From: Streptosporangiales bacterium
GTDB lineage: Bacteria; Actinomycetota; Actinomycetes; Streptosporangiales; WHSR01
Direction of reading: 5' to 3'
Assembly (NCBI GenBank): GCA_009379995.1
Contig: WHSR01000012.1
Coordinates: forward strand, 1-64,000
Length of the DNA: 64,000 bases
The notes below the pieces were generated by a model that was not told the DNA's origin, searched no databases, and was given only the letters and a program-made list of their open reading frames with translations. Of this stretch, positions 11,284-28,611 are shown piece after piece (the first letter of the stretch is position 1; every line of letters begins with the position of its first letter). The position numbers were made by a program, and so were the translations under genes.

Positions 11284-11374
11284 CAGCGGCCCCCTTCGCC
11301 GGATTCGTTCCCCCCTCCTGACGAGTTTGTCACCGAATGTCGCGTCCGCGCCAGGGCCGCGGGACGCGGGACCG

Positions 11375-11408
11375 CAAGGTAATCGTCAAGGTTTCCGCAA
11401 GGTTTCCG
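11375..11408. promoter_or_regulatory. Triple direct repeat, likely SARP operator
   Basis: CAAGGT occurs at 11375, 11387 and 11398, spaced 12 and 11 bases, the last two within the longer repeat TCAAGGTTTCCG / GCAAGGTTTCCG. SARP regulators are known to bind direct repeats at 11-base (one helical turn) spacing just upstream of the -10 box. A TAAT-containing candidate -10 follows at 11418-11421, about ten bases after the last repeat, directed towards the 11487 gene. Confidence 0.6.
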
Positions 11409-11486
11409 TCCACCAGCTAATCGCATGCTCGACATAGCTGGCCCGCGGCAGGGCGCGGGCCACGGAAGGAGGATGCGGAGGCTGTG

Positions 11487-12698
11487 ATGTCTGGCGAGAC
11501 ATGGCGTGACGTGCCGGTCGGGTTGGACGCCCATCGGTGGGTGACGCGCGGGGGTTGCCGGACGGTTCTGGCGGTGGTCCACACGGTGACCTCGGGCCAG
11601 CGTCTGATGGACGCCATCCGTCTGCTGGAAGCCGACTTCAGGATTCAGGTGGTATTCACCGCCGCGCCGGACGTGTTCGACAACGGGGTAACCGAGTTTC
11701 TCCGCGGCGTCGACGGGATCATGATCCCTTGGCAGCAGGCCACACGCACACCGTTCGACCTCGCGCTGGCGGCCAGCTACGGGTCGCTGCACCAGTTGCA
11801 CGCGCCGCTGGTGGTAATGCCACACGGAGCGAGCTTCAACAAGCTGGTGACGAGCCGGGAGCACGGCGGCGCGATCGTGGCGCGCGCCACCTACGGGTTG
11901 GAGCGACAGCGACTCGTGCGCGACGGGACCGTTGTGGCCTCGGCCATCGTGCTGGCGCACGACGCGGACCTGGTGCGGCTGGGCCGGGAGTGCCCGGAGG
12001 CGCTGCCGGTCGCGGCGGTGGTCGGCGACCCGGGGTACGACGGGTTGCTGGCCAGCCTCCCCGAGCGGGCGACATACCGCCGCGCGCTCGGCGTGACCGA
12101 GAACCAGAAGCTCGTCGTGGTGACCTCGACCTGGGGGCCGCGGTCGCTGCTCGGCGAGGGCACTGTCCTGCCACGCCTGGTCGAGGACCTGCCGAGCGAC
12201 ACGTATAAGGTCGCGGCGCTGATCCACCCGAACGCGTGGTTCGCTCACGGCCGCTGGCAGGTGCGGGCCTGGCTGGCCGACTGCGTACGCCGGGGCCTCG
12301 GGCTGGTACCACCTGAGGCGGACCCCCGGGCGGTGCTGGCCGCGGCCGACCTGATCGTGGGCGACCATGGGTCGCTAGCGCTGTACGGTGCCGCGGCAGG
12401 GATTCCGGTTGTCCTGGCCGGCTTCAGCGACCGGGACGTCGTCCCGTCCTCGGCCGGCGCGCTGCTGGCCGCAACGGCGCCTCGCCTGCGTCCGGATGCC
12501 TCGCTACTCGCCCAGCTCCGGGATGCCAAAGCCGGCTACCGGGACGAGCACCGGGACATCGTCGCGGCTCGGGTTACCTCACAGCCCGGCCGGTTCAACC
12601 GAAACATGCGCCGGCTGATGTACCGGCTGCTGCGGACGCGTCAACCGGCGACGATCCCGGCTGCCGAGCCAGCGCCCCCGCCGTTCCTCGTCCACTGA
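11487..12698 (+). CDS. CDP-glycerol glycerophosphotransferase-like protein
   Basis: A protein of about 403 residues. The C-terminal half has the GT-B-like pattern HPNAWFAHGRWQVRAWL followed by AADLIVGDHGSLALYGAAAG, the counterpart of the nucleotide-binding region of teichoic-acid polymerases (normally D-x-S-S). The N-terminal half carries MPHGASFNK. It probably transfers a glycerol-phosphate-like or sugar group, but the catalytic role is unproven in this subfamily. ATG 11487 with GGAGG five bases upstream is preferred over GTG 11484. It is followed after 32 bases by the PfkB-type kinase gene, so the two probably act together, under the divergent SARP regulator. Confidence 0.75.
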   Translation: MSGETWRDVPVGLDAHRWVTRGGCRTVLAVVHTVTSGQRLMDAIRLLEADFRIQVVFTAAPDVFDNGVTEFLRGVDGIMIPWQQATRTPFDLALAASYGSLHQLHAPLVVMPHGASFNKLVTSREHGGAIVARATYGLERQRLVRDGTVVASAIVLAHDADLVRLGRECPEALPVAAVVGDPGYDGLLASLPERATYRRALGVTENQKLVVVTSTWGPRSLLGEGTVLPRLVEDLPSDTYKVAALIHPNAWFAHGRWQVRAWLADCVRRGLGLVPPEADPRAVLAAADLIVGDHGSLALYGAAAGIPVVLAGFSDRDVVPSSAGALLAATAPRLRPDASLLAQLRDAKAGYRDEHRDIVAARVTSQPGRFNRNMRRLMYRLLRTRQPATIPAAEPAPPPFLVH

Positions 12699-12730
12699 CG
12701 ACCTTCCCACCAAGCAAGGAGCCCCCAACC

Positions 12731-13674
12731 ATGGGAGCCAAGATCGTTGTTGCCGGCGTAACCAGCCTGTCCATGGCGGTGCCGGTCGAAGGCTTTCCGG
12801 TGCCATACCGGCCGGCGTGCCGTCCCGCGTGGCTGCGGGCGGGCGTCGCGGGGTGGCATCCCACGTCGCCACCATCCTGCGGACCCTCGGCGACGACGTG
12901 CGCCTATGCACGGTCGCCGGAAGCGACCCCGCCGGAGACCTGATCCGGGCGGACCTGCGCGCCCGTGGCCTGCTCGGGATGGGTGTGATCAATGGACCCG
13001 AGTCCTCGTTCAGCGTCGCGCTGGTAGCACCGGACGGCCGCAGACGGGGCCACGCCTACCTCGCCGCGGTGAACGCCGTCCAGTATCCGACGGAGGTGTT
13101 CCGCCGGCAGGCGGCCGGCGTCGACCTCGCCGTGCTTACCAACGCCCGGTTCGTCCGGCCACTGCTCGAACACGCCGAGCGACTCGGCGTGCCCATCGCT
13201 GTCGACGTGCACCTGATCGCCGACGTGGATGACGCGTACAACCGACCGTGGCTGGAGGTGGCCGACATAGTGTTCTGCAGCCACGAACGGCTGCCCTGCG
13301 GCCCGACGGAGTGGATGGCCCGGGTCTTCGGCAGTTACCCCGGATGCGCGATCGCCGGTGTGGGCATGGGCGAACGCGGCTGCGCGGTGGGCCTTCGGGA
13401 TGGCCGCCTGGTGCACGTGTCCGCGGTCGCTCCCCGCGGTGTCGTCAATACCGCCGGCGCCGGGGACTCCCTGTTCGCGTCGTTCCTGCATTGCTGGCTC
13501 GCCACCGGAAATCCGGTGGACGCGCTGCGGTCGGCGACGATATACGCGGGCTGGAAGATCGGGGACACCTTTCCTTCGGCCGCCTGGCTCACCGAGGACG
13601 AGCTCAAGCGACTCAAGGCCATCCACACGGTCGAGGCGAGGGTTGGCCGCTGGGACACGGCTCAAGCACCGTAG
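12731..13674 (+). pseudogene. PfkB-family carbohydrate kinase with a frameshift
   Basis: From ATG 12731 (AAGGAG upstream) the product begins GAKIVVAGVTSLSMAVPVEG, a typical PfkB N-terminus. The frame continues plausibly through RPAWLRAGVAG, and the family sequence resumes in another frame as VASHVATILRTLGDDVRLCT. Adding one G to the GGGG run at 12850-12853 restores one 314-residue frame. The C-terminal half has the catalytic and anion-hole motif NTAGAGDSLFASF. The frameshift may be a sequencing error in a homopolymer or a genuine inactivation. The partner gene upstream suggests the kinase prepares or modifies its substrate. Confidence 0.8.
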
Positions 13675-14700
13675 TCAGCCCGTCTGGCCGAGCCGATCCA
13701 ATCGATCACGGAGGCGGGCGGCCTTCGGCGCATCGAGCCGGGTGAGGATGGCCAGCGCTCTCTCGTACTTGCGGCGCGCTTCACCCGGCCGCCCGGCTCG
13801 CTCGGCGAGTTCCCCGAGCGACTCAAGCACCTCTGCCTCGCCGGGCGGGGAACCGAGTTCACGCATGGCCCGCAGCGCACGCCGCAGAGACTCGGCCGCG
13901 GCGTCAAAATCGCCCGTCAGCGTGTGGGCGCCCCAGCTTCCCGAGGGCTCGGGCGTGGTTGTAGTGGTCCGACACCTCGATGAAGATGTCCGGCGCCTGC
14001 CGCAGATGGGGGACCGCTTCGCTGACCCGCCCGGCCATGGTGAGGGCGTCGCCGAGGTCAACCAGGGTCCGCGCGAACGCGCGTGTTTCGCCGAGCGCGC
14101 GGTGGGCGGCTAGCGCTTGGGTGAAATAGGCGATCGCCTCTTCGAGACGGCGGCGTCCGACCGCGACGAACCCGAGCCGGCGAAGCGACGTCGCCTGGCG
14201 ATACCGGTCCCCCAACCGGCGCCACAGCGCCAGTGCCTGCGTAAAACGCTCGTCGGCCTCGTCGAATCGCTCCAGTTCGTGCAGCGCCAAGCCGACCCGG
14301 TTGAGCATTTTGGCCTCGGCGTTGGGTCCCCGCACCTGCGCGCGGCCTCCAATCCGATCAGGTCGAATTCCAGCCGCTCCCGATACAGCCCTCGCCGCAG
14401 GAACAGCGGCCACATCGCGTCCACGAGTTGCCACGCCGTCACCGGCAATCCGCGATCGAGGGCATGCCGAACGGCTGCCAGCACATTCGCGCGTTCCTGA
14501 TCCAGCCACTCCAGGGCCTCTCCTGCATCCCGGAGTTCCTTCGGCTCCGCTGGAACGTACTCGACATCGCAGGGAAGGCCCCGCCGGTACGGCCGGATGA
14601 GCTTCCCCGCCGCTCTCGCGGGGTACAGATACCGGTCCAGCATCCGCCGCATGGCCGCATGGTGGTTCGAAGATCCCCAAGCATGGTGACGAAGCGCGCG
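13675..14700 (-). pseudogene. C-terminal TPR remnant of an AfsR-like regulator
   Basis: The minus strand reads HAAMRRMLDRYLY from about 14665, the region that follows the ATPase in AfsR-like proteins, then LEWLDQERANVLAAV and TPR units (NRVGLALHELERFDEADERF, LVDLGDALTMAGRVSEA, ESLGELAERAGRPGEA). Frames change near 14330 and again near 13930. DNA-binding, BTAD and NB-ARC parts are absent. It is a truncated, twice-frameshifted relic. It converges with the kinase gene, the stops being only a base apart. Confidence 0.75.
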
Positions 14701-14736
14701 GTCGCAGCGGTGCGGTGCGACCCACGGCTTCCCTGA

Positions 14737-15105
14737 TCAACCGGTGCGTGCGTTGACCGCCGACTCGAGCAACGACCTCAGCTCGGGGCGGGCCACATCG
14801 GCCTCCGACTCGAGCCGCACCTGCCGGTGCACCTTCCCGGTGCCCCGCATCAGGCTGTGCGGATCGGGCAGCGACGCGCCGCCGGCGATGCCGAGCCGCA
14901 CGGCCGCCTTCAGCGGGGTGACGACGAACACCAATCCCTTGTAACCGCCCTCGTAGTCCGGGCCGCCAAAACCGATGTCGTCGCCGTCGACGGTCAGCAC
15001 CGCGCCGGGGAGTACGTCCCGTACGAGCCCGCAGGCTCGGCGCGCAATGGCCTGGACCTTGGGATCGAAGGAAGCCAGCAGCGCATCGATCTCCGCGTCG
15101 GACAC
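14737..15105 (-). CDS. DUF1801-family protein
   Basis: A 122-residue protein with the DUF1801 (YdhG-like) pattern: an N-terminal helix SDAEIDALLASFDP, LRxLI-like RACGLVRDVLPGA, a central GYKGLVFVVTPLKAAVRLGI sheet, then GTGKVHRQVRL. These are small soluble proteins of unknown biochemical function. The longer reading to 15363 runs through arginine-rich non-protein sequence. GTG 15105 has AGGAGG at a 6-base spacing and is preferred over GTG 15111, which touches the Shine-Dalgarno sequence. Confidence 0.8.
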   Translation of the reverse strand: MSDAEIDALLASFDPKVQAIARRACGLVRDVLPGAVLTVDGDDIGFGGPDYEGGYKGLVFVVTPLKAAVRLGIAGGASLPDPHSLMRGTGKVHRQVRLESEADVARPELRSLLESAVNARTG

Positions 15106-15139
15106 CGTCACCCTCCTCTGTCGTCCGGGCGCTTCGATG

Positions 15140-15889
15140 CTATGGCCCTTGGCAACCGGGGTCATCGACGGTGAGCAGCGTGGCGCCGAGCACGAGCGCC
15201 AGGTCGATGGTGACGGCGTACGCGCGGTCCGGCCGGCGCGGCGGCGGCACGAACACCACGCCGCAGTCCACCGCGACGCCCAGGAGGTCACGCAGTTCGG
15301 CCACCCACTGGGCATGGGTGAGCGCGGTGGTCGTCGGCGGCTGCCCCAGCGGCGCCGTCTCACAGAAAATCAGGGCGAGGTCGCGGGGCGGGTCGATGGC
15401 GGGCTCCGGGCGTGGTCCGTCGCTGAGCAGCTCGGCGTACGGCGTAGTCCCCGGCACCTGGCCGAACGCGAACACCTGGCGGACGCGCGAGCGTTCGGTC
15501 GCGGCGAGGGCGTCATCCGCCAGCGACGGCGCGGTCATCAACAGCCGCGCGTCGCAGTCGGTAAGGCGGTCGGCCAGCTCCTCGACCGGGGCGTCGGCGG
15601 GCAACGGCACGGCCGCCGCGCCCGCCGCCACGAGGGTGTGCAGGGCGAGCACGTACTCCCGGACGCTGGACGCGTGTACCGCCGCGACATCGCCGGTACG
15701 CACCCCGCGCCGGACCAACCCGGCGGAGGCGGCGGCGGTCGTCGAGATGAGTTCCGCGTAGGTCAGAGCCGTGCCCTCGCAGGCGTCGACAAGGGCCGGC
15801 TTGGCCTCCGGCGCCCCCGAGGCATGAAGCACCATCTGCGTCACCGTCGCGGAAGGGACGGCCACGCGGGTAAGGCGCTTCTGCGTCAT
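15140..15889 (-). CDS. Truncated adenylate-forming enzyme, N-terminal half only
   Basis: From ATG 15889, 249 residues follow the N-terminal domain of 4-coumarate/acyl-CoA ligases (SATVTQMVLHASGAPEAKPALVD, TYAEL, GVRTGDVAAVHA, GAAAVPLPADAP). Where the ATP-binding P-loop should read TSGTTGxPKG there is FCETAPLGQPPTTTALTHAQ, with the glycines and lysine lost. The enzyme then ends; full ligases have over 500 residues and a C-terminal lid. It is therefore unlikely to adenylate anything. Either it is a decayed gene or a stand-alone binding domain. It lies just downstream of the LuxR regulator and shares its strand. Confidence 0.6.
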   Translation of the reverse strand: MTQKRLTRVAVPSATVTQMVLHASGAPEAKPALVDACEGTALTYAELISTTAAASAGLVRRGVRTGDVAAVHASSVREYVLALHTLVAAGAAAVPLPADAPVEELADRLTDCDARLLMTAPSLADDALAATERSRVRQVFAFGQVPGTTPYAELLSDGPRPEPAIDPPRDLALIFCETAPLGQPPTTTALTHAQWVAELRDLLGVAVDCGVVFVPPPRRPDRAYAVTIDLALVLGATLLTVDDPGCQGP

Positions 15890-15995
15890 GACGCCGACCG
15901 TGGGGATGATGGGCGAGACATCGCGTTCATGGGATACGTACGGAGACGCGGAGGCACCCAGGCGGGCCGGATGAACGAGCCGGCCGCGCGGAGGT

Positions 15996-16028
15996 GGCGG
16001 GCTCGGGCGAGCACCGCCCGAGCCCGCC
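15996..16028. terminator. Strong hairpin after the LuxR regulator gene
   Basis: A perfect 14-bp stem (15996-16009 with 16015-16028) and a 5-base loop, about 205 bases downstream of the stop at 16233 and 107 bases before the 15889 start. No T-run is present. It should end transcription of the regulator gene on the minus strand. Nothing else is apparent in the 15890-16232 gap. Confidence 0.65.
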
Positions 16029-16232
16029 GATCGCGTGCACTCCACTCCTCGCCGGCCACCTCCCCCCCTCACGGGATGATCGGCGTTCGGTGTCCCCCCT
16101 CGGGCGAGCACGCGACGCCATGACCACAGTCAGCTTCCGCGACCGCGGCGGCGGCGTGCATCCACCGATCTATGCATTCCGGTATGCAGACGGGACGGGC
16201 GGGAGGGTGGCCGACGGCCCCGCCGGGCAGGT

Positions 16233-18737
16233 TCAGCCCGATGCCTCGTACCCGTGGCCGTTCTCGACGGCCCACGCGGCGACCTGGGCCCGCGAGCTGA
16301 AGCCGAGCTTGATGAAGATGTTCGCGACGTGCCGCGCCGCGGTCGCCGGGCTGATGACGAGCTCGTCCGCGATACCACGGTTACTCAGACCACGGGCTAT
16401 CAGCAGCGTGATCTCGTGTTCCCGCGGTGTCAGCGTGTTGGTGGGAGCGGTCGGCGTCACCCGGGACAGGTCGGACCGCGCCGCGTGCGTGTGATCACCC
16501 GGTACCGGCGAGGCGTCAGCGGTCTCCGTCTCGATTGCGCAGGCGACCGCCTCGTCGATCGGCATCTCCCGGCCCTCGGCCCACAGCTGCATCAGCAGCG
16601 GCGGACCGAGCTGCCTGCGTGCGGGCGCGAGCAACCCCTCGAGCCGGGCCCCTGACATCGGCGGGCTGCCGACCTGTTCCCGCAGCGCCGCGGCCGCGCC
16701 CGCCAGTTGGACCGTACGCCGCAGGTCACCCTCCCGCGCCGTCAAGGCGGCGAACGCCTCCAGGCCGCGCGCGACGCTGAGACGCGCGCCGGTGGAGTGG
16801 CTCAGCATGAGGCTCTCGGTCAGGTGGGTACGGCCGAGCGCCAGATCTCCCTGGTCCAGAGCCACCCTCGCGATGCCGGCCAGGCACCGAGCGATCTCCG
16901 GACGCGCCTCGACCTCGCGGAGGATCGGGAGGGCCTCTTCGTAGTACCGCCGGGCCGCGGCGTGGTCACCGCGCACCTGGGCAAGCATCCCGAGGCCGGA
17001 GAGGGTACGGGCGGCGCCCCACTGCTGGTCGATGCGCCGCATCACGGCCAGGGCCGCCTCACCGCTGCGCTGCGCCTCGCGCAACCTTCCCTGAAGCGCG
17101 GCGAGCGCGCCTCGGGTGCCGAGCGCATAGCCCTCGTTCCACGCGTCGCCGCAGGCACGGGCGGTCGTGAAGGCCTCCTCGATTCGGGCGGCCGCGTGCT
17201 CCAGCCGTCCCTCGCGGAGGTCGACTTCCGCGAGGACGTTGAGGGCCGAACCCACCCCGACGTCGTCGCCGCCGGCGCGGCACAGCGCCAGCCCTTCGAG
17301 GGCGCGCTCCTCGACCTGCGCGGGATCCTGCTCGTGGTAGGCGATCTGGGCGCGCCCAACCAGGGCGGCGCCCCGAACGGCCGGCGGCACCTCGGGGGCG
17401 TCGAGGGCGAGGAAGCTGTCGAACCAGGCACCGCCCTCGGTGAAGTATCCGCGGACTACCCAACAGGGACGCAGCGCCGTGCAGATCCGCAGCCCTTCCT
17501 CCGCGTCACCGTGTTCGAGGCAGTGCCCCAGGATGGATCGGAGGTTGTCCTCGTCGCAGTCGTACCGGCGGAACGACGCGACGGTGACCGACCACGGGGC
17601 GGGAATCAGGGCCATCCCGGTCGCCGATATGCGCTCGGTGGTGTGCACGGCGTAGTCGCGGGACCGGCACCGTAGGTCCTCCGCCTCGCCCGCCTCGATG
17701 AGGCGTTCGGCCGCGTACTGCCGGATCGTGTCGAGCATGCGGTACCGGACCTCGCCGGCCACCTCGCGGTCGACCACTATCAGCGACTTGTCCACCAGCG
17801 CGGTCAGCAGGTCGAGTACGTCCTCGGCCGGCAGGTCGTCTCCCGTGCAGATTTGCTCGGCCATCTCCAGCGACCAGCCGGCGAAGCCGGCGAGCCGCCG
17901 CAGCAGAACCTGCTCCGGCTCGGTGAGCAGCTCGTGGCTCCAGTCGATGGTGGCGCGCAGCGTACGCTGGCGCGGCGGCGCGGTGCGGTCGCCGTTGCCG
18001 AGGAGCCGGAAGCGGTCACCGAGCCGGGCCGCGATCTGTTCCACCGAGAGCACCCGGACGCGCGCCGCGGCCAGCTCGATCGCGAGCGGGACGCCGTCGA
18101 GGGCCCCGCACAGCCGCGCCAGGGGCTCAGCGTTCTCCGCGGTGATGGCGAACCCAGGCCGCGCCGCGGCGGCGCGCTCGGCGAACAACCGCACCGCCTC
18201 GTGACGGGCCAGTCCCTCCGGCGTGAGAGGCGCGTTGGGTGGCGGCAGCGACAGCGGCGGCACTCGCCAGATCGTCTCGCCCGGCATCCGCAGCGGTTCC
18301 CGGCTCGTCGCGACGATGCGCAGCCGCGGACAGCTGGCGAGCAACGTCTGGCAGATGTCGGCGCACGCTTCGATCAGGTGCTCACAGTTGTCGAGCACGA
18401 GCAGCAAACGGCGCGGCCGCAGAGCGGCGGAGAGCGTGTCGGTCAGCTGCCGGTCCGCCTCCTCCACGACGCCGACCGCGTTGGCCACCCGCCGAACGAC
18501 AAGGTCGGGCTGTTGGAGGTCGGCGAACTCGACCAGCCACACCCCGTCGTCGTACTCGTCGACCTGCGCGCCCGCGAGGTGCAGGGCGAGCCGCGACTTG
18601 CCGATGCCGCCGGTCCCGCACAGCGTTACCGCCCGCGTCACGTCGAGGAGCTGCCGAAGCTCGGCCATGTCGCGCTCGCGGCCGACGAAGCCGTTCGGTT
18701 CGGCCGGCAGGTTGTGCTGAAATGTCCGTGGAGTCAT
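16233..18737 (-). CDS. LuxR-family regulator with NB-ARC ATPase and TPRs
   Basis: An 834-residue cytoplasmic regulator. An N-terminal AAA/NB-ARC domain shows GRERDMAELRQLL, Walker A CGTGGIGKSRL (near residue 43), Walker B RLLLVLDNCEHL and SREPLRMPGE; TPR-like helices span about 380-700. The last 65 residues are a LuxR helix-turn-helix beginning LTPREHEITLLIARGLSNR. Such proteins are signal-gated activators; no sensory ligand is evident. The ATG at 18737 is followed by MTPRTFQHNLPAEPNGFVGR, the usual N-terminus. It lies between the multicopper oxidase gene and the truncated ligase on the same strand, and could regulate either. Confidence 0.95.
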   Translation of the reverse strand: MTPRTFQHNLPAEPNGFVGRERDMAELRQLLDVTRAVTLCGTGGIGKSRLALHLAGAQVDEYDDGVWLVEFADLQQPDLVVRRVANAVGVVEEADRQLTDTLSAALRPRRLLLVLDNCEHLIEACADICQTLLASCPRLRIVATSREPLRMPGETIWRVPPLSLPPPNAPLTPEGLARHEAVRLFAERAAAARPGFAITAENAEPLARLCGALDGVPLAIELAAARVRVLSVEQIAARLGDRFRLLGNGDRTAPPRQRTLRATIDWSHELLTEPEQVLLRRLAGFAGWSLEMAEQICTGDDLPAEDVLDLLTALVDKSLIVVDREVAGEVRYRMLDTIRQYAAERLIEAGEAEDLRCRSRDYAVHTTERISATGMALIPAPWSVTVASFRRYDCDEDNLRSILGHCLEHGDAEEGLRICTALRPCWVVRGYFTEGGAWFDSFLALDAPEVPPAVRGAALVGRAQIAYHEQDPAQVEERALEGLALCRAGGDDVGVGSALNVLAEVDLREGRLEHAAARIEEAFTTARACGDAWNEGYALGTRGALAALQGRLREAQRSGEAALAVMRRIDQQWGAARTLSGLGMLAQVRGDHAAARRYYEEALPILREVEARPEIARCLAGIARVALDQGDLALGRTHLTESLMLSHSTGARLSVARGLEAFAALTAREGDLRRTVQLAGAAAALREQVGSPPMSGARLEGLLAPARRQLGPPLLMQLWAEGREMPIDEAVACAIETETADASPVPGDHTHAARSDLSRVTPTAPTNTLTPREHEITLLIARGLSNRGIADELVISPATAARHVANIFIKLGFSSRAQVAAWAVENGHGYEASG

Positions 18738-19082: not shown

Positions 19083-22000
19083 TCACCTCGGACGTACCCG
19101 GATGATCCCCCACAGGCCTTCGGACAGCGCCCACCGCAGGACGCCGGTGCGGTACGCGTAGTCGCCCGGCTCCCCGGCCGTGAAGCTCAGGGTGCGCAGG
19201 CTCCCCGTGGTGAGGCCGCCGAGGGCGCCGACCCGCGGCTCGTCGAGGTGTTCCTCCATCGGCCAGGTCTGCTCGTGGATGTGGAAGCTGTGGTTGCGCG
19301 GCCGGTCGGCCGCGGCCACCAGGTGGAGCCGAACCTCGTCCCCGGGGGCGCACTCGAGCAGCGGCGTGCCGGGTTCGGGGTCGGCGAGCGACGGTCGCAT
19401 GGGCAGCAGGTGGGCGCTGCGGTAGTTGACCGCCTTCTGCCCCGAGTCCTCGGGCTCGTCCTCGAGATCGCGGACCGGCTGGGTCTCGTCACCGTCGTGA
19501 TACTGCCGCAGACCGTCCTGGAGCACGAGCACGAGCTCGTGGACCGGCCCGCCGCTGGGGCCGCGCAGGATGGCCTGCTCGCCGACCCAGCGCTCCCGGC
19601 CGGTCGCCGGGTCGTACGGCGTCACGTCGGACGGCTCGACAACCAGCGCGCCGACGAGCCCGCGATGCCGGTGCGTCCGTACGTCCGCGCGATCCTGGAG
19701 CAGCATTACACCCGGCACGTCCGCGTACCAGCGGTAGGTCTTCGACTCCTCCGGCCGCACGGTGCCGTCCTCGTTTTGGCCGATCCAGGAGCCGTCGCTG
19801 ACCCGCACGTCGTATCGCAGCAGGCTGGGGTGCATCGACACCCGCGCCGAGGTCTCCCGATCCGCCGGGTCGTCCTTCGCCGGGAGCGGCGGGTCGAACG
19901 GCGTGGCCGGAGGCGCTCCGCCGAGCTCGTTGGCGAGCGTCACCTCGACCCATTCTCCGACCCGGCAGCGCAGCACGAGCGGCTCGTCCTCCGGCGCTCC
20001 CTCGACCACGTAGACGAGACCGTACGGGTCGGTGCGCTGGTCGCTGTAGCGGATCTCGCGGGCGACCGCCCGGACGTGGTAGCGCCGTGCCTTCGCCGGG
20101 TCGTACGGCGGCAGCGGCTCGTCCTCGAACGCCCCCGGCAACGGCGGCAGGTCGTCCTGGCGGGAGTCGTGTAGCCGGAACAGTCCCCAACAGCCGAGCC
20201 AGGTGTCGTCGATGGAGGCAAGCGACCACAGGTAGTCGCCGGGGCCGAACGTTTCGTCGACGTGGAAGTTGAACGCCTCGGAGATGCCGATCGTCTGCTG
20301 GTCGCGCAGCGGCGAGTCCGGGTCGTCGCGCCAGGCCCGCCAGCGCATCCCGTGCATGCCGAAGCTGTGCTGCTCCTCGTGCGAACCCTGGTAGAGCCGG
20401 ATCCGGATTCGTTCGCCCGGGTAGCCGCGCAACACAGGGGTGCCCGGATCGCCGTGCACCTTGCTGGAGAACCAGTTCGCCGGGTCGCCGGGACGCTCGT
20501 GCAGCGGCTCGCAGCGGTAGTCGACGGCCATGACCCCTTGGTCGTCGAACGCGCCGGGAAAGGCCGGCGGGTTGATCGGAACGCCCTCCTCACCCGGCCC
20601 GTGCTCGAAGAGCGGTACGAAATCGGCGACGCCGAGCACCTGCTCGCGGAACGCCGACCCGTCGGGCAGCTTCACCACCGCCTGTGTCGCGTTATGTACC
20701 TCGCGGCCGTGGTCGTGCGGATCCACCCACACCGCGCCCTTGGGCTCGGCGACCATGCAGCCGAAGAGCCCGTGCCGCTGCCGCTCGTTGGCGAGCAGGT
20801 GGTCGTGGAAGAACACGGCCCCGAACTCCTCGTCGCAGTACCACCGGTAGATCCACGAGTTGTAGCGCGCGTGATCCTCCGGCCCCTGGTCGGCCGTGGC
20901 CGTGCCGGACAGGTAGTTCCAGCCGACGCTCGCCCCGTCCGCGACCAGTGGGTCGAACTTCACCAGGTGTACGTGCAGGCCGCACTCGGGCTGGAACGGG
21001 AGCACCGCGTCGAACGCCGTCTCCTCCCGGCAGCCGGTCGGGAGCGCGTTGGTCAGCGTCAGCTCGAGTACCTCGCCCTTGCCCGCGCGGATGGTGATCG
21101 GCTGGATCTCCCGCGTACCGTCCTCAAGCTGCCTCCGGAAGTCCTCGACCCCGCCGGCCGCGTCCACCTCCTCCTTGAGTACGAAGAAGACCCCGCGGTG
21201 GTCGTGCCAGCTGGTGCCGTGCCCGTCGCCGCGGCTCCGGAAGTAGGTGATCTTCCCTTCCATGACCACGAAGTGGTAGCGGCGCACGGGCGGATCGACG
21301 TCCTTCGGCGTCACCTTGGTGAACGCCTCACCCGGCTGCGGGTCCTCGCAGAACGCGGCCCTCTCCAGCTCCGTCGGCTCCCGGCCCATGCCGTCGGGCA
21401 TGTGCGGCGTGCGGGGCGGGCGCGGCGACTTCTGCGGAAACTCGCCCGGCATGAACGCGGGAAAGCCGGGCTTCCCCGGCGTCGGCGGCGGTGGCGGCTC
21501 CGGGTTGCTGGGCAGCGGCTGCAGCGCCTCGATGGGTGTGCCGTCCGGGTAACGGCCGCTGCCGTCCTGCAGCACGTCGAACACCCGCCAGATCCCCCAC
21601 ATCCCGGAGTGGAAGTGCGGGTAGAGGTGGCAGTGGAAGATGGCGTCGCCGGTCGCGCGCTGGACCGAGCCGGCCTGCTTGTCGCCCGGCTCGTCCTCGC
21701 CGATCGTTTCGAAGCTGAAGGCCTGCTGGGGGCTGATCGTGATCGAGTCGACGATCGGCGACTCCGCGTTCGCCGGCACCGCCCGCCACTGGTGCAGGTG
21801 CAGGTGGAAGACATGGGTCTCCTTCACCCCAGCGTGCACCAGCCGGATCCTCGACCGGTCGCCCCGGTAGGCCCGCAGGACCGGCGTCGCCGGATCGCCG
21901 AACAGCCACGAGCTGTGGTGCTGCTCCTCGCCGACGATCTGGTCGCGCACCGGGTCGATCTCACCGGCGTCCAGCATCTGCTCGTACGCGAGCGCCCGCC

Positions 22001-22856
22001 AGCCCATCGGCTCGGTGCGGTAGCTGATCAGCATCATCGAGTCGTGCTCGGGCTCGCCGTGGTCGCCCGGCTCGCCGTCGTCGCCGTGATCGCCGTCGTC
22101 GCCGCCGTGGTCCTCCGGCCACAGGACCGGCTTCAGCCGCTCGCCGCCGGCGGCCACGGAGTGCGTGTGCGGACGCGGCCGCTCGCACACGTAGACGGGG
22201 TGCGGCGGCGGGACGGGGTTGTGGTTGTCCGTCTCGTCCTGCATGAAGACGACGTACTCGCGGAAGCTCTTGTCCTCGCCGGGCGGATGCACGTCGGCGT
22301 ACAGCCCGTCGACCAGCGGCGCCCCGGTCACCGGGTCGGTCCAGGCGGCACCCTCCGGCTCCACCACCAGCGCACCGAAGAGACCATGGGCCTGCGACCC
22401 CTCCTCGCCTCCGCGCAGGTCGGCTAGGTCGTGGAAGAAGAACACGCCCTCGGCGTCGCAGACCCACTCGTACGTGCGGCGGCCCCCGTCCGGCTCGGCC
22501 GCCGAGTCGGGGTTACGCCCCACCGCGCCGCCGTCGGCGGTGTGCACGTCGTACCGCACGCCCTGTACGTGGATGCCGGCCCGCCGCGGCAGCTCGTTAC
22601 GGAACCGCACCACCACCCGCTCCCCCACCTGGGCCCGCAGGACCAGGGGGCGCACCAGCCGGTGCGGCTCGGGCAGCCTGTCGGGCTCGTGGATCGGGTC
22701 CGGGAACGGCACCGGCCAGCTTTCCGCGATCCTCCGGAGCTCCGCCTCGTTCTCGGCGAGCGCGTAGATCATGCCGTCCCGGTCGTGATCGCCCCACGTG
22801 TCGTAGGCGATCGGCACCGGCAGCGCGACGACGTCGTAGGTCCTTCCGGCAGCCAT
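19083..22856 (-). CDS. Giant multicopper oxidase (MnxG size class)
   Basis: A 1257-residue protein composed of repeated cupredoxin domains. Copper-ligand motifs visible: HVFHLHLHQW (near residue 352), FHCHLYPHFHSGMWG (near 407, the HCHxxxHxxxxM set joining type 1 and type 3 sites), CGLHVHL (near 629), FFHDHLLANERQRHG (near 683), a third-domain GMHGMRWRAW (near 832) and SFHIHEQTW near the end. Ordinary laccases have 450-550 residues; this length is like MnxG, the catalytic subunit of the Bacillus manganese oxidase, and some actinomycete copper oxidases. There is no signal peptide or Tat motif at the N-terminus. A His/Asp-rich loop (near 250-275) may bind metal. The substrate is unknown; manganese or phenolics are possible. 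Confidence 0.92.
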   Translation of the reverse strand: MAAGRTYDVVALPVPIAYDTWGDHDRDGMIYALAENEAELRRIAESWPVPFPDPIHEPDRLPEPHRLVRPLVLRAQVGERVVVRFRNELPRRAGIHVQGVRYDVHTADGGAVGRNPDSAAEPDGGRRTYEWVCDAEGVFFFHDLADLRGGEEGSQAHGLFGALVVEPEGAAWTDPVTGAPLVDGLYADVHPPGEDKSFREYVVFMQDETDNHNPVPPPHPVYVCERPRPHTHSVAAGGERLKPVLWPEDHGGDDGDHGDDGEPGDHGEPEHDSMMLISYRTEPMGWRALAYEQMLDAGEIDPVRDQIVGEEQHHSSWLFGDPATPVLRAYRGDRSRIRLVHAGVKETHVFHLHLHQWRAVPANAESPIVDSITISPQQAFSFETIGEDEPGDKQAGSVQRATGDAIFHCHLYPHFHSGMWGIWRVFDVLQDGSGRYPDGTPIEALQPLPSNPEPPPPPTPGKPGFPAFMPGEFPQKSPRPPRTPHMPDGMGREPTELERAAFCEDPQPGEAFTKVTPKDVDPPVRRYHFVVMEGKITYFRSRGDGHGTSWHDHRGVFFVLKEEVDAAGGVEDFRRQLEDGTREIQPITIRAGKGEVLELTLTNALPTGCREETAFDAVLPFQPECGLHVHLVKFDPLVADGASVGWNYLSGTATADQGPEDHARYNSWIYRWYCDEEFGAVFFHDHLLANERQRHGLFGCMVAEPKGAVWVDPHDHGREVHNATQAVVKLPDGSAFREQVLGVADFVPLFEHGPGEEGVPINPPAFPGAFDDQGVMAVDYRCEPLHERPGDPANWFSSKVHGDPGTPVLRGYPGERIRIRLYQGSHEEQHSFGMHGMRWRAWRDDPDSPLRDQQTIGISEAFNFHVDETFGPGDYLWSLASIDDTWLGCWGLFRLHDSRQDDLPPLPGAFEDEPLPPYDPAKARRYHVRAVAREIRYSDQRTDPYGLVYVVEGAPEDEPLVLRCRVGEWVEVTLANELGGAPPATPFDPPLPAKDDPADRETSARVSMHPSLLRYDVRVSDGSWIGQNEDGTVRPEESKTYRWYADVPGVMLLQDRADVRTHRHRGLVGALVVEPSDVTPYDPATGRERWVGEQAILRGPSGGPVHELVLVLQDGLRQYHDGDETQPVRDLEDEPEDSGQKAVNYRSAHLLPMRPSLADPEPGTPLLECAPGDEVRLHLVAAADRPRNHSFHIHEQTWPMEEHLDEPRVGALGGLTTGSLRTLSFTAGEPGDYAYRTGVLRWALSEGLWGIIRVRPR

Positions 22857-22998
22857 GAAGCCCCCTGTCTACTGGCTCTGGATACGCCCCCGTTGTGGCG
22901 AAAACCCCGCGTTTGCCGACATTCTCGCCCTTCCTTCGTCGTCCCGAGGGCATAAAGCTCGAAGACCGAGGTCGGCGACGCGGGGGGATGGTCCGGAC

Positions 22999-23682
22999 CT
23001 AGCGCGGCAGACCTCCGCGGTGGAGACGCCCGACACCGGGAACGAAGCGCCCCACCTGGGCGGCGTAGCGCTCGTACGCGAAGCCGTGCTGGCGATGCAG
23101 GTAGGGCTCTTCCACGACGCGAACCACAAGCTCGATGCCCGCGACGAGGACTGCGAGCCCGACGACGGCGATCAGGTTCGGCACGGCAAGGGCCAAGCCC
23201 AGCCCCATCAGGCCCCAGGCGGCGTAGATCGGATTGCGCACGACGCGGAAGAGCCCGTCCGTGAGCAGCGTGGTGCGTTCGGTCGGGTCGACACCGATCC
23301 GCCAGTACGTCCCCATGGCGAGCTGGGCCACGAACGCGCCCAACACGCCTACCCCGGCCAGGATCACTCCGGCGAAGCGCAGCGACGGCACGTCCAGGAA
23401 AGACAACGGGGCCCAGCCGGCCAGCTCGCCCAGCGGAGCGAGGACGCCGACGGCGCCGCTGCCGACGACGGTCGCCAACACCGCCCACAACCCCGAGCCC
23501 GGACGGACGGAGCGAATGCCGGTGTCGCCGGTGTAGCGATATTGGAGCCAGACCCGCACCCCACCAGCCAGTACGACGAAAAGAGCGAACACCACGAGCG
23601 CAATGACGGCCACGGCAATCACCTCCGAATGGGCGATCGTCACCAGGCAGACGGTACCCGCGGCCGCCCTCCCGCCGCCCAT
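22999..23682 (-). CDS. ICMT/PEMT-like membrane methyltransferase family protein
   Basis: About 227 residues with four or five membrane segments and, in the C-terminal part, the phospholipid/isoprenylcysteine methyltransferase pattern LFRVVRNPIYAAWGLMGLG followed by VVRVVEEPYLHRQHGFAYERYAAQVGRFVPG. These motifs bind S-adenosylmethionine at the membrane in homologues; the bacterial substrates are mostly unknown. ATG 23682 lacks a good Shine-Dalgarno sequence, and GTG 23643 (VTIAHSEV) is an equally likely start. It follows the DinB-like gene by 16 bases, so the two are probably cotranscribed. Confidence 0.85.
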   Translation of the reverse strand: MGGGRAAAGTVCLVTIAHSEVIAVAVIALVVFALFVVLAGGVRVWLQYRYTGDTGIRSVRPGSGLWAVLATVVGSGAVGVLAPLGELAGWAPLSFLDVPSLRFAGVILAGVGVLGAFVAQLAMGTYWRIGVDPTERTTLLTDGLFRVVRNPIYAAWGLMGLGLALAVPNLIAVVGLAVLVAGIELVVRVVEEPYLHRQHGFAYERYAAQVGRFVPGVGRLHRGGLPR

Positions 23683-23698: not shown

Positions 23699-24289
23699 CT
23701 ACGCCGGCTGCGCTTGCGCCTCCCAGGGCTGGAGCCACGGGGTGGCCGGCCAGCCCTCCGCGGCGGCCATCAGCGGGAAGGCGGTGGCGCCGTCCACGCA
23801 CTCCCGGATGATGTCGGCGTGACCGGCGTGACGTGCCGTCTCCTCGATCAGGTGGAGCAGGACCCAGCGCACCGACCATGCCTCGACGTCGTCGGGGAAC
23901 CAGGGCACGCCCCGCGGTACCGGCACCGCCTGCCCGAGGTCCTCGATCCCGGCGATGACCGCCTCAGTCTCCGTGGCCACCTGCTCATAGTGGTCGAGCA
24001 CATCGGCCAGCGTCTCGTCCGGGCCGAGGCGGAAGTTGGCGACGTAGTCTTCCTCCGCGTCTTCCCTGGACGCCTGCTCGCGCTGCAGGACGACATTGAT
24101 CCAGTTCCGCTCCACGTCCGCGACGTGTTTGATCAGGCCACCGACACTGAGCGAACTCTTGGTGGGCGTCGCCCGAGCCTGCTCGTCGGTCAGCCCGTAC
24201 GCCGCGATGCGGAGCACTAGGCGTTGCTGGGCAAGGTAGGCGAGCAGCCCCTCACGCTCGTCGGCGACCGGGGGGACCTGTCCAGGCAT
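23699..24289 (-). CDS. DinB/DUF664-family protein
   Basis: A 196-residue four-helix-bundle protein with the metal-binding histidines in LSVGGLIKHVADVERNW and LLHLIEETARHAGHADIIRE, typical of DUF664 within the DinB superfamily. Relatives include thiol-dependent (mycothiol or bacillithiol) transferases and detoxification enzymes. ATG 24289 has GGAGG nine bases upstream. It heads a two-gene unit with the membrane methyltransferase. A perfect 10-bp palindrome lies 45 bases upstream and may be its operator. Confidence 0.85.
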   Translation of the reverse strand: MPGQVPPVADEREGLLAYLAQQRLVLRIAAYGLTDEQARATPTKSSLSVGGLIKHVADVERNWINVVLQREQASREDAEEDYVANFRLGPDETLADVLDHYEQVATETEAVIAGIEDLGQAVPVPRGVPWFPDDVEAWSVRWVLLHLIEETARHAGHADIIRECVDGATAFPLMAAAEGWPATPWLQPWEAQAQPA

Positions 24290-24333
24290 GCGGTTATACC
24301 TCCCTGTTGGGATCAGATGATCAGTAAAGACCG

Positions 24334-24356
24334 AGATGTCCCGTGTCGGGACATCT
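24334..24356. promoter_or_regulatory. Perfect palindrome upstream of the DinB-like gene
   Basis: AGATGTCCCG and CGGGACATCT flank the trinucleotide TGT: 10-bp arms, no mismatch. It lies 45 bases upstream of the DinB-like start and in the divergent gap before the ligase at 24610. The short spacer suits a dimeric repressor site better than a terminator. It is unlike the ACCGNNCGGT sites found nearby. Confidence 0.5.
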
Positions 24357-24435
24357 GAATCATCGCACCCGGCACCGGCCCTTCGCGCCCTCGGCGCCAG
24401 GGTTGACAGGCATCTCGGCTCGGGTCATCATCGCG

Positions 24436-24457
24436 TTGGACCTACCGGTCGGTCCAA
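24436..24457. promoter_or_regulatory. TetR-type operator, ACCGNNCGGT family (site 1)
   Basis: Outer arms TTGGACC (24436-24442) and GGTCCAA (24451-24457) are perfect complements; the core includes ACCGGTCGGT. The site lies about 150 bases upstream of both the ligase operon at 24610 and the DinB-like gene. It shares 18 of 22 bases with the site at 35513. The rest of the 24290-24609 gap shows only the separate palindrome at 24334. Confidence 0.6.
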
Positions 24458-24609
24458 TGCTGCGAACGCGTGGCGACCGGAGTCGTGGCGGCGTTCGGAT
24501 CAGCCGTTGACGCTCGGGGTGGAACGTCGAACGAAGGCGAGACGATGAGGCCGTCACCGCTCTGTCGGGTGCCCCAAAACGGGGCCCAGCGGTCCTCGAG
24601 GAGGCAGCG

Positions 24610-26172
24610 ATGACCGTCGACTTCATCGGGCAGCGCAATCTGCGGGATCTGCTGGAGGAACGTGCCGCGCGCTACCCCGACAACACCGCACTGGTCTGCG
24701 AGGACGCGTCGGGAAAGGTCGTCGAGTTCAGCTACCAGCAGTTCATCAACGATGTGCAGCGTACGGCCCGTGGCTTCGCGTCCCTGGGCATTGACAAGGG
24801 TGACGCGGTAGTCGTCCACCTGGCCAACTGCGCGGAATTCGTTCTGTCCTGGTTCGGCCTCGCCTGGATCGGCGCCGTCATGGTGCCGACGAACACGGCG
24901 AACACGACGAAAGAGCTCTCGCACGTGGTCAGCCACTCCGGGGCGGTCGCGGCGGTCACCTCGCCCGACTACCTCGATCTGTTCCGCGGCGTCCAGCGGG
25001 ACTTCCCCGCCCTCCGGGACCTGGTCCTCGCCCGGACCCGGGGGCCCGAGGCCGGGACGACGCTCCTCGCCGACCTGCTGGACGCGACCGGAGCCCCTCC
25101 GCGTCCCGCGATCGACTCGGAGGACGTCGTTGAGATGATCTTCACCTCGGGCACCACCTCGCTGCCGAAGGCCGTACTGCTCACGCACGCCAACCACCTG
25201 TGGTCCGGCGAGCGGGCGTCACGGGCCATCGACGTACGCACCGAGGACCGCTGCCTGACGGCGCTTCCGGCCTTCCATGTGAACGCCCAGTCCACGACGA
25301 TCCTGGCCGCGTTCAACGTCGGAGCCACCTGCGTCCTGCTCGAGGAGTACCGGGCCTCCAAGTTCTGGAGCCAGATCATCGCGCACGACGCGACGGTCAC
25401 CAGCCTGGTGGCCATGCAGGCCCGCACGCTCCTCGCCCAGCCGCCGTCGCCGGACGACTCCCGGCATCGTCTGCGGCGCGTCTTCTACGCGATCAACGTC
25501 ACCGACTCGGAGAAGAAGGAGTTCGAGCGCCGGTTCGACGTCGAGCTGATCAACGGCTACGGGCTCTCCGAGGCCATGACGATCGTGACCATGGCGCCGA
25601 TACACGGTGACCGTCGCTGGCCGTCCATCGGCCTACCCACCCCCGATCGGACGGTACGGATCGTCGATGGCAACGGCGAGGACGTCTCGGTCGGGCAGAC
25701 CGGAGAGATCATCGTGGCCGGCGTGCAGGGACGGACCCTGATGAAGGGCTACTTCAAGGATCCCAAGGCGACCGACGCCACGCTGCGGGACGGCTGGCTC
25801 TACACCGGCGACAACGGATACCTGGACGAACGCGGCTACGTGTACTTCTTCGACCGGAAGAAGGACGTCATCAAGCGCGCCGGAGAGAACGTATCCGCCA
25901 GCGAGGTGGAGTTCGTGCTCGCCGACCACCCGCTGGTGAACGAGGCCGCCGTCATCGGCGTCCCCGACGACATCAGGGACGAAGCCGTCAAGGCCTACGT
26001 CGTTCCGGCCGAGGACGCGCAGCTCACCGCCTCCGACGTGCAGGCGTACTGCCGGGAGCGCCTCGCGTCGTTCAAGGTCCCCACGATCGTCGAGATCCGC
26101 GAGTCGCTGCCCAAGACCTCCATCGGCAAGATCGAAAAGAAGACGCTCCGTGCCGAGAGCGGCGAGGGGTGA
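24610..26172 (+). CDS. Acyl-CoA ligase (CaiC-like)
   Basis: A 520-residue AMP-forming ligase that activates a carboxylic acid as its CoA thioester. It has P-loop TSGTTSLPKAVLLTH (near residue 180), YGLSEAM, YTGDNGYLDERG with FDRKKDVIKRAGEN, and the C-terminal catalytic lysine in KTSIGKIEKK. The order and spacing resemble carnitine/crotonobetaine-CoA ligases, but the acid cannot be read from the sequence. ATG 24610 follows GAGGAGG. It is the first gene of a plus-strand unit running to 30184, whose next genes encode hydratase subunits and dehydrogenases, so it probably supplies their CoA ester. Confidence 0.93.
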   Translation: MTVDFIGQRNLRDLLEERAARYPDNTALVCEDASGKVVEFSYQQFINDVQRTARGFASLGIDKGDAVVVHLANCAEFVLSWFGLAWIGAVMVPTNTANTTKELSHVVSHSGAVAAVTSPDYLDLFRGVQRDFPALRDLVLARTRGPEAGTTLLADLLDATGAPPRPAIDSEDVVEMIFTSGTTSLPKAVLLTHANHLWSGERASRAIDVRTEDRCLTALPAFHVNAQSTTILAAFNVGATCVLLEEYRASKFWSQIIAHDATVTSLVAMQARTLLAQPPSPDDSRHRLRRVFYAINVTDSEKKEFERRFDVELINGYGLSEAMTIVTMAPIHGDRRWPSIGLPTPDRTVRIVDGNGEDVSVGQTGEIIVAGVQGRTLMKGYFKDPKATDATLRDGWLYTGDNGYLDERGYVYFFDRKKDVIKRAGENVSASEVEFVLADHPLVNEAAVIGVPDDIRDEAVKAYVVPAEDAQLTASDVQAYCRERLASFKVPTIVEIRESLPKTSIGKIEKKTLRAESGEG

Positions 26173-26678
26173 CCGTGGCCCCGGACTGGCATGCGCTCCA
26201 CGGGTCCGTGAAGGAGCATGTCGGCAGGTCGACGAGACAGCGGCTGGGTCCGATGTCCGCCGCCCAGTTCCAGCGCTTCGCGGTGGCCGTCGGCGACCTC
26301 AACCCCCGCTACTTCGATCCGGAGGCCGCACGGGAGCAGGGGTTCCCTGGGGTCGTCGCCCCGCCGCTGTACCTGACCAGCGTTCTCGGATGGCAGGCCG
26401 GGCCCGCCGAGGACGAACTGCGGCCGGACGGCGCGGAATCCGAGGTGATGGCGGGAGTGCCCCTGGAGGGCGTCCGGCTGATGGGGGCCGGCCAGGAGGT
26501 GGAGCTGTCCCACCCGGTCTGCGACGGGACCGACGTGACCCTCGAGGTGTCCGTCGACGACGTGGAGCTGAAGCACGGCGGCTCCGGCCAGTTCCTCATC
26601 CTGCGGCTGTTGCGACGCTACCTGGACGACCGGGGCACGGAGCTCATGCGCTGCCGCGAGACCTTCATCGCGCGATAA
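26169..26678 (+). CDS. MaoC-like hot-dog subunit, catalytic His replaced
   Basis: A 169-residue FAS1-type dehydratase-like hot-dog protein. The motif that normally reads GDxNPxHxD is GDLNPRYFDPEAA here, with Tyr in place of His, so this subunit is probably the structural or substrate-binding half. The next gene encodes a partner that keeps the His. Paired subunits of this kind are known from the mycobacterial HadAB and ChsH1-ChsH2 hydratases. The GTG start overlaps the ligase stop by four bases (GTGA), implying translational coupling. Confidence 0.85.
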   Translation: MTVAPDWHALHGSVKEHVGRSTRQRLGPMSAAQFQRFAVAVGDLNPRYFDPEAAREQGFPGVVAPPLYLTSVLGWQAGPAEDELRPDGAESEVMAGVPLEGVRLMGAGQEVELSHPVCDGTDVTLEVSVDDVELKHGGSGQFLILRLLRRYLDDRGTELMRCRETFIAR

Positions 26679-26690
26679 GAGGGGGGCGAG

Positions 26691-27146
26691 ATGTCGGCCG
26701 GGGTTTCCTTCGAAGAGGTGGCGCCGGGGGCCGCGATCACCCCGCTGGTCAAGCGGCCGACCAACGTGCAGCTGTTTCGGTTCAGCGCGGTCACCTGGAA
26801 TGCCCACCGCATCCACTACGACACCGCGTACGCCCACACGGAGGGCTACCCCGACGTGCTGGTCCAGTCGCACCTGCACGGCTGCTTTCTGGTCCAGGCG
26901 GTACTCGACTGGGCGGGCCCCCGGGCGCGGCTGCGCCGGTTCTCGTGGCAGAACCGCCGTTTCGCGCTGCCGGGCGACGTGCTGACCTGCTCGGGAAAGG
27001 TGACGGCCACCGAGGTCCACGACACCGTCGGGCTCGTGACCTGCGAACTCGAGGAACGCAACCAGGACGGGGAACTCTGTGCGCCCGGGTGGGCCACCAT
27101 CGAGCTTCCCCGCGCGACCGTGATGGGGAACGACCATGGTGCCTGA
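26691..27146 (+). CDS. MaoC-like enoyl-CoA hydratase, catalytic subunit
   Basis: A 151-residue hot-dog protein containing SAVTWNAHRIHYDTAYA and GYPDVLVQSHLHG, the hydratase motif with its catalytic Asp/His region intact. It should combine with the preceding subunit to hydrate an enoyl-CoA (or dehydrate a 3-hydroxyacyl-CoA) with R stereochemistry, as family members do. The gap to the previous stop is 12 bases and holds GAGGGGGGCGAG as the ribosome binding site. Confidence 0.88.
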   Translation: MSAGVSFEEVAPGAAITPLVKRPTNVQLFRFSAVTWNAHRIHYDTAYAHTEGYPDVLVQSHLHGCFLVQAVLDWAGPRARLRRFSWQNRRFALPGDVLTCSGKVTATEVHDTVGLVTCELEERNQDGELCAPGWATIELPRATVMGNDHGA

Positions 27147-27249
27147 GATGAGGCGGCGGCGCGGCCGACATCGACGAGGCAGGGACGAGACGTACAAGAC
27201 GTGCGAGACATACGACGTGCACAACCCTCCGAGGAAGGGGAGGCACACG

Positions 27250-28611
27250 ATGACGCCAACGCAGCGGGTGGCGCAGTTCGTCGCCTCCGTGAAGTTCGAC
27301 GACCTGCCCGAGCACGTCGTCGAGAAGGCGCGGGTGACGCTGCTGCACGACATCACGGTGGGGGTGGCCGGCTTCCGGAAGGCTTCGGTGCCGATGGAGC
27401 TGGCCAGGGCGACAGGGCCGGATGCCGCGGGCGGGGGTGGCCGACTCCTCGTGGACGGCACCCGGGTGACCGTCGAGGCGGCGGCCTTCGCCAACGCCGC
27501 GCTGATCCACGCCCGTACCCAGGACGACACGTACCTCCCGGGGCTCACCCACGTCGGCTGCACGGCCCTGCCCGCAGTGCTGTCCCTGGCCGACAGCCTC
27601 GACAGCGACGGGCGCGCGTTCGTCACCGCGATGGTCGCCGGTTACGAGGCGGTCGCCGCGATCGGCGAGGGATGGGCGGCGAGGGCCACGTCGCGCGGCC
27701 TGCGGGCGACGGGCGTCTTCGGGCCGATCGGGGCGGCCACCGCGTGCGCGCGGCTGCTCGAATGCGACCCCCAACAGATAGCTTCCGCGCTCGGCCTCGC
27801 CGCGGGCTTCGCCGGCGGAACCAACCAGACCTGGGTCGCCGGTACCCAGGAGTGGCAGTACCAGCCGGGCATCGCCAGCCGCAACGGGCTGACGGCGGCC
27901 CTGCTGGCGGCCCGCGGGGTCACCAGCGCCCCGGACGCGCTCGAGGGCGCCGCGGGGTTCTACCGTTCCTACACCGGCGACCCGGACGGCGCGGAGAACG
28001 TGGGAGAGCAGCTCGGCACCGAGTGGCGGATCGGGGCGGTGACCTACAAACCCTTCCCGATCTGCGCACTCAACCAGCTCCCGGTCTCGACCCTCCTCGA
28101 CCTGCTCGCCGCGTCGCCGACGCCGCCCGACGACGTCGAGCACATCGCCCTGGCCCTCCCGCCGGGCGACGCCGCCTATCCGGGTATCGACGCGAAGGGC
28201 CCGTTCACCGACGTGGGCGCGACGCTGATGAGCGCGCAGTACTGCCTCGCGGTGGGCCTGATCAGGGGCGGCATCGGGCTGGACGACCTCACCGCGTTCG
28301 ACGACGCTGCGGTGACGGACCTGGTACAGCGGATCGACGTCGTACCGGACGCCGATCTGCCGCGGGGCGGGTGCCGGCTCACCGTTCGGACGCGGAGCGG
28401 AGCGGTCCGCGAACGCGAGGCGACACCCACGGCGGAGACCTTCAACTGGGGCCGCGACGAGACGGCGTCGCGGGCCCGCAGGCTGGCCGCCGAGTCGCCG
28501 CTCGATGGTGAGCAGATGGAACGGCTGATCGACACGATTCTGCGGGTGGACTTGCTGCCGGTCGCCGACCTGGTCGCCGCGACGGTGGTACCGGACGGGA
28601 CGGAGCGGTGA
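27250..28611 (+). CDS. MmgE/PrpD-family protein
   Basis: A 453-residue protein of the MmgE/PrpD fold: N-terminal helical domain with RVAQFVASVKFDDLPEHVVE and LHDITVGVAGF, then FGPIGAATACARLL and AGTQEWQYQPGIASRNG, and a C-terminal domain with YKPFPICALNQLPVSTLL. Characterised members include 2-methylcitrate dehydratase, cis-aconitate decarboxylase and epimerases, so the reaction is not decided. ATG 27250 with GGGGAGG seven bases upstream is preferred over GTG 27136, whose first 38 residues are arginine-rich. The 103-base gap before it contains repeated GACGT/GACAT words. Confidence 0.88.
   Translation: MTPTQRVAQFVASVKFDDLPEHVVEKARVTLLHDITVGVAGFRKASVPMELARATGPDAAGGGGRLLVDGTRVTVEAAAFANAALIHARTQDDTYLPGLTHVGCTALPAVLSLADSLDSDGRAFVTAMVAGYEAVAAIGEGWAARATSRGLRATGVFGPIGAATACARLLECDPQQIASALGLAAGFAGGTNQTWVAGTQEWQYQPGIASRNGLTAALLAARGVTSAPDALEGAAGFYRSYTGDPDGAENVGEQLGTEWRIGAVTYKPFPICALNQLPVSTLLDLLAASPTPPDDVEHIALALPPGDAAYPGIDAKGPFTDVGATLMSAQYCLAVGLIRGGIGLDDLTAFDDAAVTDLVQRIDVVPDADLPRGGCRLTVRTRSGAVREREATPTAETFNWGRDETASRARRLAAESPLDGEQMERLIDTILRVDLLPVADLVAATVVPDGTER

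Follow-up and report, generated by a model that had tools for sequence, protein, structure and literature searches.

A leaderless MnxG-family multicopper oxidase encoded without detectable MnxE or MnxF in a Streptosporangiales bacterium

In the Mnx manganese oxidase complex, the genes mnxE and mnxF lie next to mnxG; Bacillus needs at least mnxEFG for activity, and its spores carry out the oxidation (PMC5622069). The only solved manganese oxidase of this kind is a seven-subunit complex. The gene analyzed here belongs to the same family and lies at a locus that has neither mnxE nor mnxF, within a stretch of 64,000 nucleotides (the window; contig WHSR01000012.1, positions 1 to 64,000) from a Streptosporangiales bacterium, an actinobacterium of soil type.

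Family membership and relatives

The oxidase gene is read on the minus strand from an ATG at 22856 and encodes 1257 aa; its open reading frame is real and is unbroken in the assembled genome. The original prediction of a 1257-residue multicopper oxidase of the MnxG type was confirmed, as the best PDB match was MnxG of Bacillus sp. PL-12 (9bxa chain A; phmmer E 6.7e-244), with 44.1% identity over 1115 columns and at full length. Pfam domains Cu-oxidase_3 and Cu-oxidase_2 were found. The match to the NCBIfam model NF041487 (MnxG, 1894 aa) had an E of 6.5e-68 and scored 228.9 bits, far short of the 3100 bits required, which places the protein outside this equivalog of Pseudomonas-type MnxG. The gene is thus a member of the MnxG family and a full-length relative of Bacillus MnxG, with which its product is collinear (44% identity, 1257 versus 1227 aa) and shares all copper ligands and the lack of a signal peptide. 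It differs from the Bacillus system in having no MnxE/MnxF genes, in a linker of 62–76 aa rich in histidine and acidic residues, and in a host that is no endospore former. A structure model reached a mean pLDDT of only 60, so that only the ranking of fold hits was used: MnxG came first, followed by ceruloplasmin-type folds.

Related loci were grouped into three classes. Class A (L002–L013 and the plasmid locus L042) holds the orthologues, with the same start throughout and the same linker in L002–L013; the close ones come from Streptomyces, Actinomadura, Glycomyces, Actinophytocola and a Pseudonocardiaceae MAG (68–76% identity, most 74–76%), and L042, at 60% identity, lies on a plasmid in an ant-associated Pseudonocardia. 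Class B (L014–L017, from Geodermatophilus, Actinomycetospora and a Propionibacteriales MAG) is likewise leaderless and has the same ligands at 48% identity, but its proteins are longer (1355–1620 aa), with inserts in domain 1 in L014, L016 and L017, which measure 1500–1620 aa. Class C (L018–L021) keeps the same ligands at about 31% identity and differs in a hydrophobic N-terminal membrane region and additional cysteines; a DUF1775 gene lies near the oxidase in three of its four loci (L018–L020). In the tree, Bacillus MnxG together with classes A and B, both leaderless and actinobacterial, was split from membrane-anchored class C with 100/100 support; the long branches leading to MnxG and to class C come together there, which makes their exact order unsure. 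Class A was supported at 100/100 and class B at 99/97.

The actinobacterial class A clade is patchy and usually lacks conserved neighbors. With a 140-residue piece as query, no orthologue was found in 40 relatives of the host or in a sample of the phylum (0/396 genomes; best match 57% over a fragment). A decaying or non-functional gene acquired horizontally would fit this patchiness; however, the frame is intact, all ligands are kept, most orthologues are 74–76% identical, and purifying selection on the oxidase is evident in close relatives (dN/dS about 0.15–0.21 in related species pairs), which makes decay very improbable. A phage origin was rejected, as the search gave no match. The top matches in the 396-genome sample sit in frames of ~1500–2100 aa. 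Frames of this length from several genera of another family in the phylum (L032–L038) have more than one MnxG-like match region, and some such genomes have two or three MnxG-like matches.

Copper ligands and the class A linker

Ligands were mapped in an alignment of 22 sequences, comprising the window protein, 9bxa_A and 20 related loci. The 9bxa_A sequence was rebuilt from printed alignments, and the lengths of the pieces agree with the stated residue ranges. Roles were assigned from the textbook pattern of multicopper oxidases (H-x-x-H-x-H, H-C-H-x-x-x-H-x-x-x-x-M, H-x-H and H-D-H). Every copper ligand of MnxG is matched by the HxxHxH, HCHxxxHxxxxM, HxH and HDH motifs of the window protein (Table 1), in agreement with the paired motifs originally predicted. 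In HCHLYPHFHSGM, H408 and H410 are assigned to type 3 copper, C409 is the type 1 cysteine, H414 the type 1 histidine and M419 the axial methionine. Twelve ligands (H348, H351, H353, H408, C409, H410, H414, M419, H628, H630, H684 and H686) do not vary in any of the natural sequences aligned. The sole exception is A340 of 9bxa, opposite H414; as the entry bears the title 'Mnx H340A complex', this is an engineered change, and the window protein keeps the wild-type histidine at this position. The type 1 and trinuclear ligands are therefore complete and in the MnxG order, domain 2 and then domain 3, and the possibility that ligands are missing was rejected. In the first cupredoxin domain (residues 94–99 and 141–143), each histidine pair is short of one histidine, as in MnxG.

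Table 1. Positions of the oxidase gene, its motifs and its flanking genes in the window.
Feature	Position	Strand	Basis or remark
NB-ARC/STAND-TPR-LuxR regulator, downstream of oxidase	16233..18737	-	neighbor only; not conserved
MnxG-family multicopper oxidase, 1257 aa, without signal peptide	19083..22856	-	profile and PDB matches
HDH (H684, H686), type 3 ligands, equivalent to MnxG H575/H577	20799..20807	-	alignment
HVH (H628, H630), type 2 and type 3 ligands, equivalent to MnxG H529/H531	20967..20975	-	alignment
HCHLYPHFHSGM (H408, C409, H410, H414, M419)	21600..21635	-	alignment, fold match
HVFHLH (H348, H351, H353), type 1/type 2/type 3 ligands, equivalent to MnxG H281/H284/H286	21798..21815	-	alignment
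His/Asp/Glu-rich linker between cupredoxin domains 1 and 2, residues 205–276	22029..22244	-	alignment; low pLDDT
Ribosome-binding-like AGGGGG with in-frame TAG 5′ of it	22860..22871	-	sequence read
PEMT/isoprenylcysteine-methyltransferase-like membrane protein, upstream of oxidase	22999..23682	-	neighbor only

The linker of class A proteins is 62–76 aa long with 7–10 histidines and many acidic residues, versus 29 residues in Bacillus MnxG, and lies in a region of low model confidence (pLDDT < 50 at residues 215–287). It is a signature of the actinobacterial class A clade, and it may help to hold metal in place of MnxE/F. It is unlikely, though, that the enzyme is a single-chain, cytosolic actinobacterial manganese oxidase in which the linker replaces the metal-binding MnxE3F3 ring and MnxG chemistry proceeds without MnxE/F. 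Apart from the absence of MnxE/F and this linker, the enzyme is an ordinary, well-conserved member of its family.

Start site, partner genes and neighborhood

The AGGGGG upstream of the oxidase ATG is suitably spaced from it, and an in-frame TAG (22869–22871) stands five codons upstream of the ATG, so that the open frame has 1261 codons only. This stop rules out an upstream leader, and inspection of the three frames upstream found no leader-like stretch. Each of the 12 close actinobacterial orthologues has a possible start 20–21 residues before a GDHD motif. A missed leader was rejected because of the in-frame stop and the conservation of the start among orthologues. The original prediction that the protein lacks an export signal was thereby upheld, while its view that this would be unusual was not: MnxG of Bacillus PL-12 and of Priestia starts at the equivalent place and is also leaderless, as are the 12 orthologues and, with the same start, four class B relatives. 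Long hydrophobic N-terminal regions were found in the four distant class C relatives (31–33% identity). Since Bacillus PL-12 and Priestia MnxG and the actinobacterial relatives lack a leader, its absence is a family trait; it is real in the window oxidase, but not an oddity.

On Priestia plasmids, mnxG is preceded by a pair of small genes that match the PDB chains MnxE (2.7e-27) and MnxF (1.8e-17). As predicted, such partners are absent here: at blast-level sensitivity, neither mnxE nor mnxF was found beside the window oxidase or in its genome, whereas the Priestia plasmid control was found. Six related hosts gave no match either; across these searches the only alignments were three insignificant ones to MnxF (E 0.6–0.8). 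Each query was one divergent sequence, and a strongly diverged ring subunit could escape detection. The plasmid-borne mnxEFG of Priestia megaterium (L041, L044) has a CopC-like gene upstream and is flanked by genes of 243 and 239 aa that resemble one another.

The neighbors of the oxidase vary between genera, and most orthologue loci have no conserved partner gene. The LuxR-type regulator noted in the original prediction is present, but it lies beside none of the oxidase relatives; since it is not conserved, it is no evidence of oxidase function, and it was rejected as the cognate regulator. The PEMT/isoprenylcysteine-methyltransferase-like gene on the other side is not beside the oxidases of relatives either. 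Window positions 8128–18737 hold large STAND/TPR regulators, comprising a SARP (8128–11283), a TPR-only piece, possibly a remnant (13904–14740), and the LuxR protein. Positions 23699–28611 encode a mycothiol-S-transferase-like DinB protein and then, on the plus strand, an acyl-CoA synthetase and an MmgE/PrpD protein.

Class A neighborhoods differ from that of the window. In two Pseudonocardiaceae loci (L005, 12779–19351, and L042, 848–7489), a GMC oxidoreductase, an alpha/beta hydrolase (60%) and a SARP regulator (50%) lie beside the oxidase; this cluster is not in the window, and its SARP is a different regulator from that of the window. The Fur and KatG genes that adjoin Actinomadura orthologues are confined to one genus and were not read as a functional link. 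A PpoB2 gene lies near the class A oxidase of Glycomyces (L009), and DUF1326 and PpoB2 genes lie directly upstream of the class B oxidases L014, L016 and L017; the window has neither beside its oxidase. PpoB2 was rejected as a chaperone for the window oxidase, as none was found in its genome while positive controls were found in other hosts.

Place of action and substrate

We consider it probable that the gene encodes a leaderless actinobacterial MnxG-family oxidase that works solo, is made in the cytosol and oxidizes a low-valent metal ion or a phenol. The six-cupredoxin-type enzyme would carry one working type 1 copper (H348, C409, H414, M419) and one trinuclear center (H351/H628; H353/H408/H410/H630/H684/H686). 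In the putative redox cycle, a one-electron donor would deliver electrons to the type 1 site, from which they would cross the H-C-H bridge to the trinuclear center, where O2 would be reduced to water. The enzyme would do so without an MnxE/F ring. Made without an export signal, like Bacillus MnxG, it would begin in the cytosol and either act there or reach the surface through cell lysis.

SsgA-like genes are a marker of sporulating actinomycetes. A genome search, which serves only as a proxy for sporulation, found none in the window's genome or in its sister family; among other hosts with a class A or class B oxidase they were found in 9/9 tested, and in the other family of the order in 17/17 genomes searched. 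A Bacillus-style role on the spore surface therefore does not fit this host, and the enzyme may act in the cytosol or be released by lysis.

The reading as a true Mn(II) oxidase like Bacillus MnxG, which would form extracellular Mn(III/IV) oxide, either once cells have lysed or on spores, is only a tentative one. MnxG is the closest characterized relative, and SsgA-like genes, typical of spore formers, occur in many orthologue hosts, but neither the window's genome nor its sister family has them, while all nine other hosts tested do, and MnxE/F, needed in Bacillus (PMC5622069), were not found. Judged by its sequence relatives, Mn(II) is a plausible substrate; with MnxE/F absent and mnxEFG needed in Bacillus (PMC5622069), the substrate may be another, and no neighboring gene points to manganese.

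A cytosolic ferroxidase or cuprous oxidase that handles copper or iron, or a phenol oxidase, in either case departed from manganese chemistry, is possible to a similar, limited degree. The lack of a leader, the His/acid-rich linker, the ceruloplasmin-type folds that follow MnxG in the fold search and the PpoB2 copper-chaperone gene preceding the more distant class B relatives are consistent with it. So is the lack of evidence for disulfide pairs in the alignment, where C609 and C625 were lost independently and without covariation; disulfides were rejected as a sign of export for this reason. The genome of the window has no PpoB2, however, and no copper gene adjoins the oxidase.

Leaderless export by hitchhiking or by an unknown secretion route would suit a family whose substrates are usually extracellular and whose distant class C relatives have a membrane anchor. 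It is quite unlikely, given that most orthologue loci have no conserved partner gene and that leaderless Bacillus MnxG acts on spores and needs no export route (PMC5622069).

Most likely, the enzyme is ceruloplasmin-like, works solo, is made in the cytosol and oxidizes a metal ion or a phenol; among metal ions, Mn(II) would be the first candidate, followed by Fe(II) or Cu(I). Its real differences from Bacillus MnxG are the absence of two partner proteins and an added histidine-rich loop. Culturable Streptomyces and Actinomadura offer a solo relative in which no copper ligand is missing; it would reveal whether MnxE/F take part in the chemistry or only assist it, and also where a leaderless copper oxidase works.
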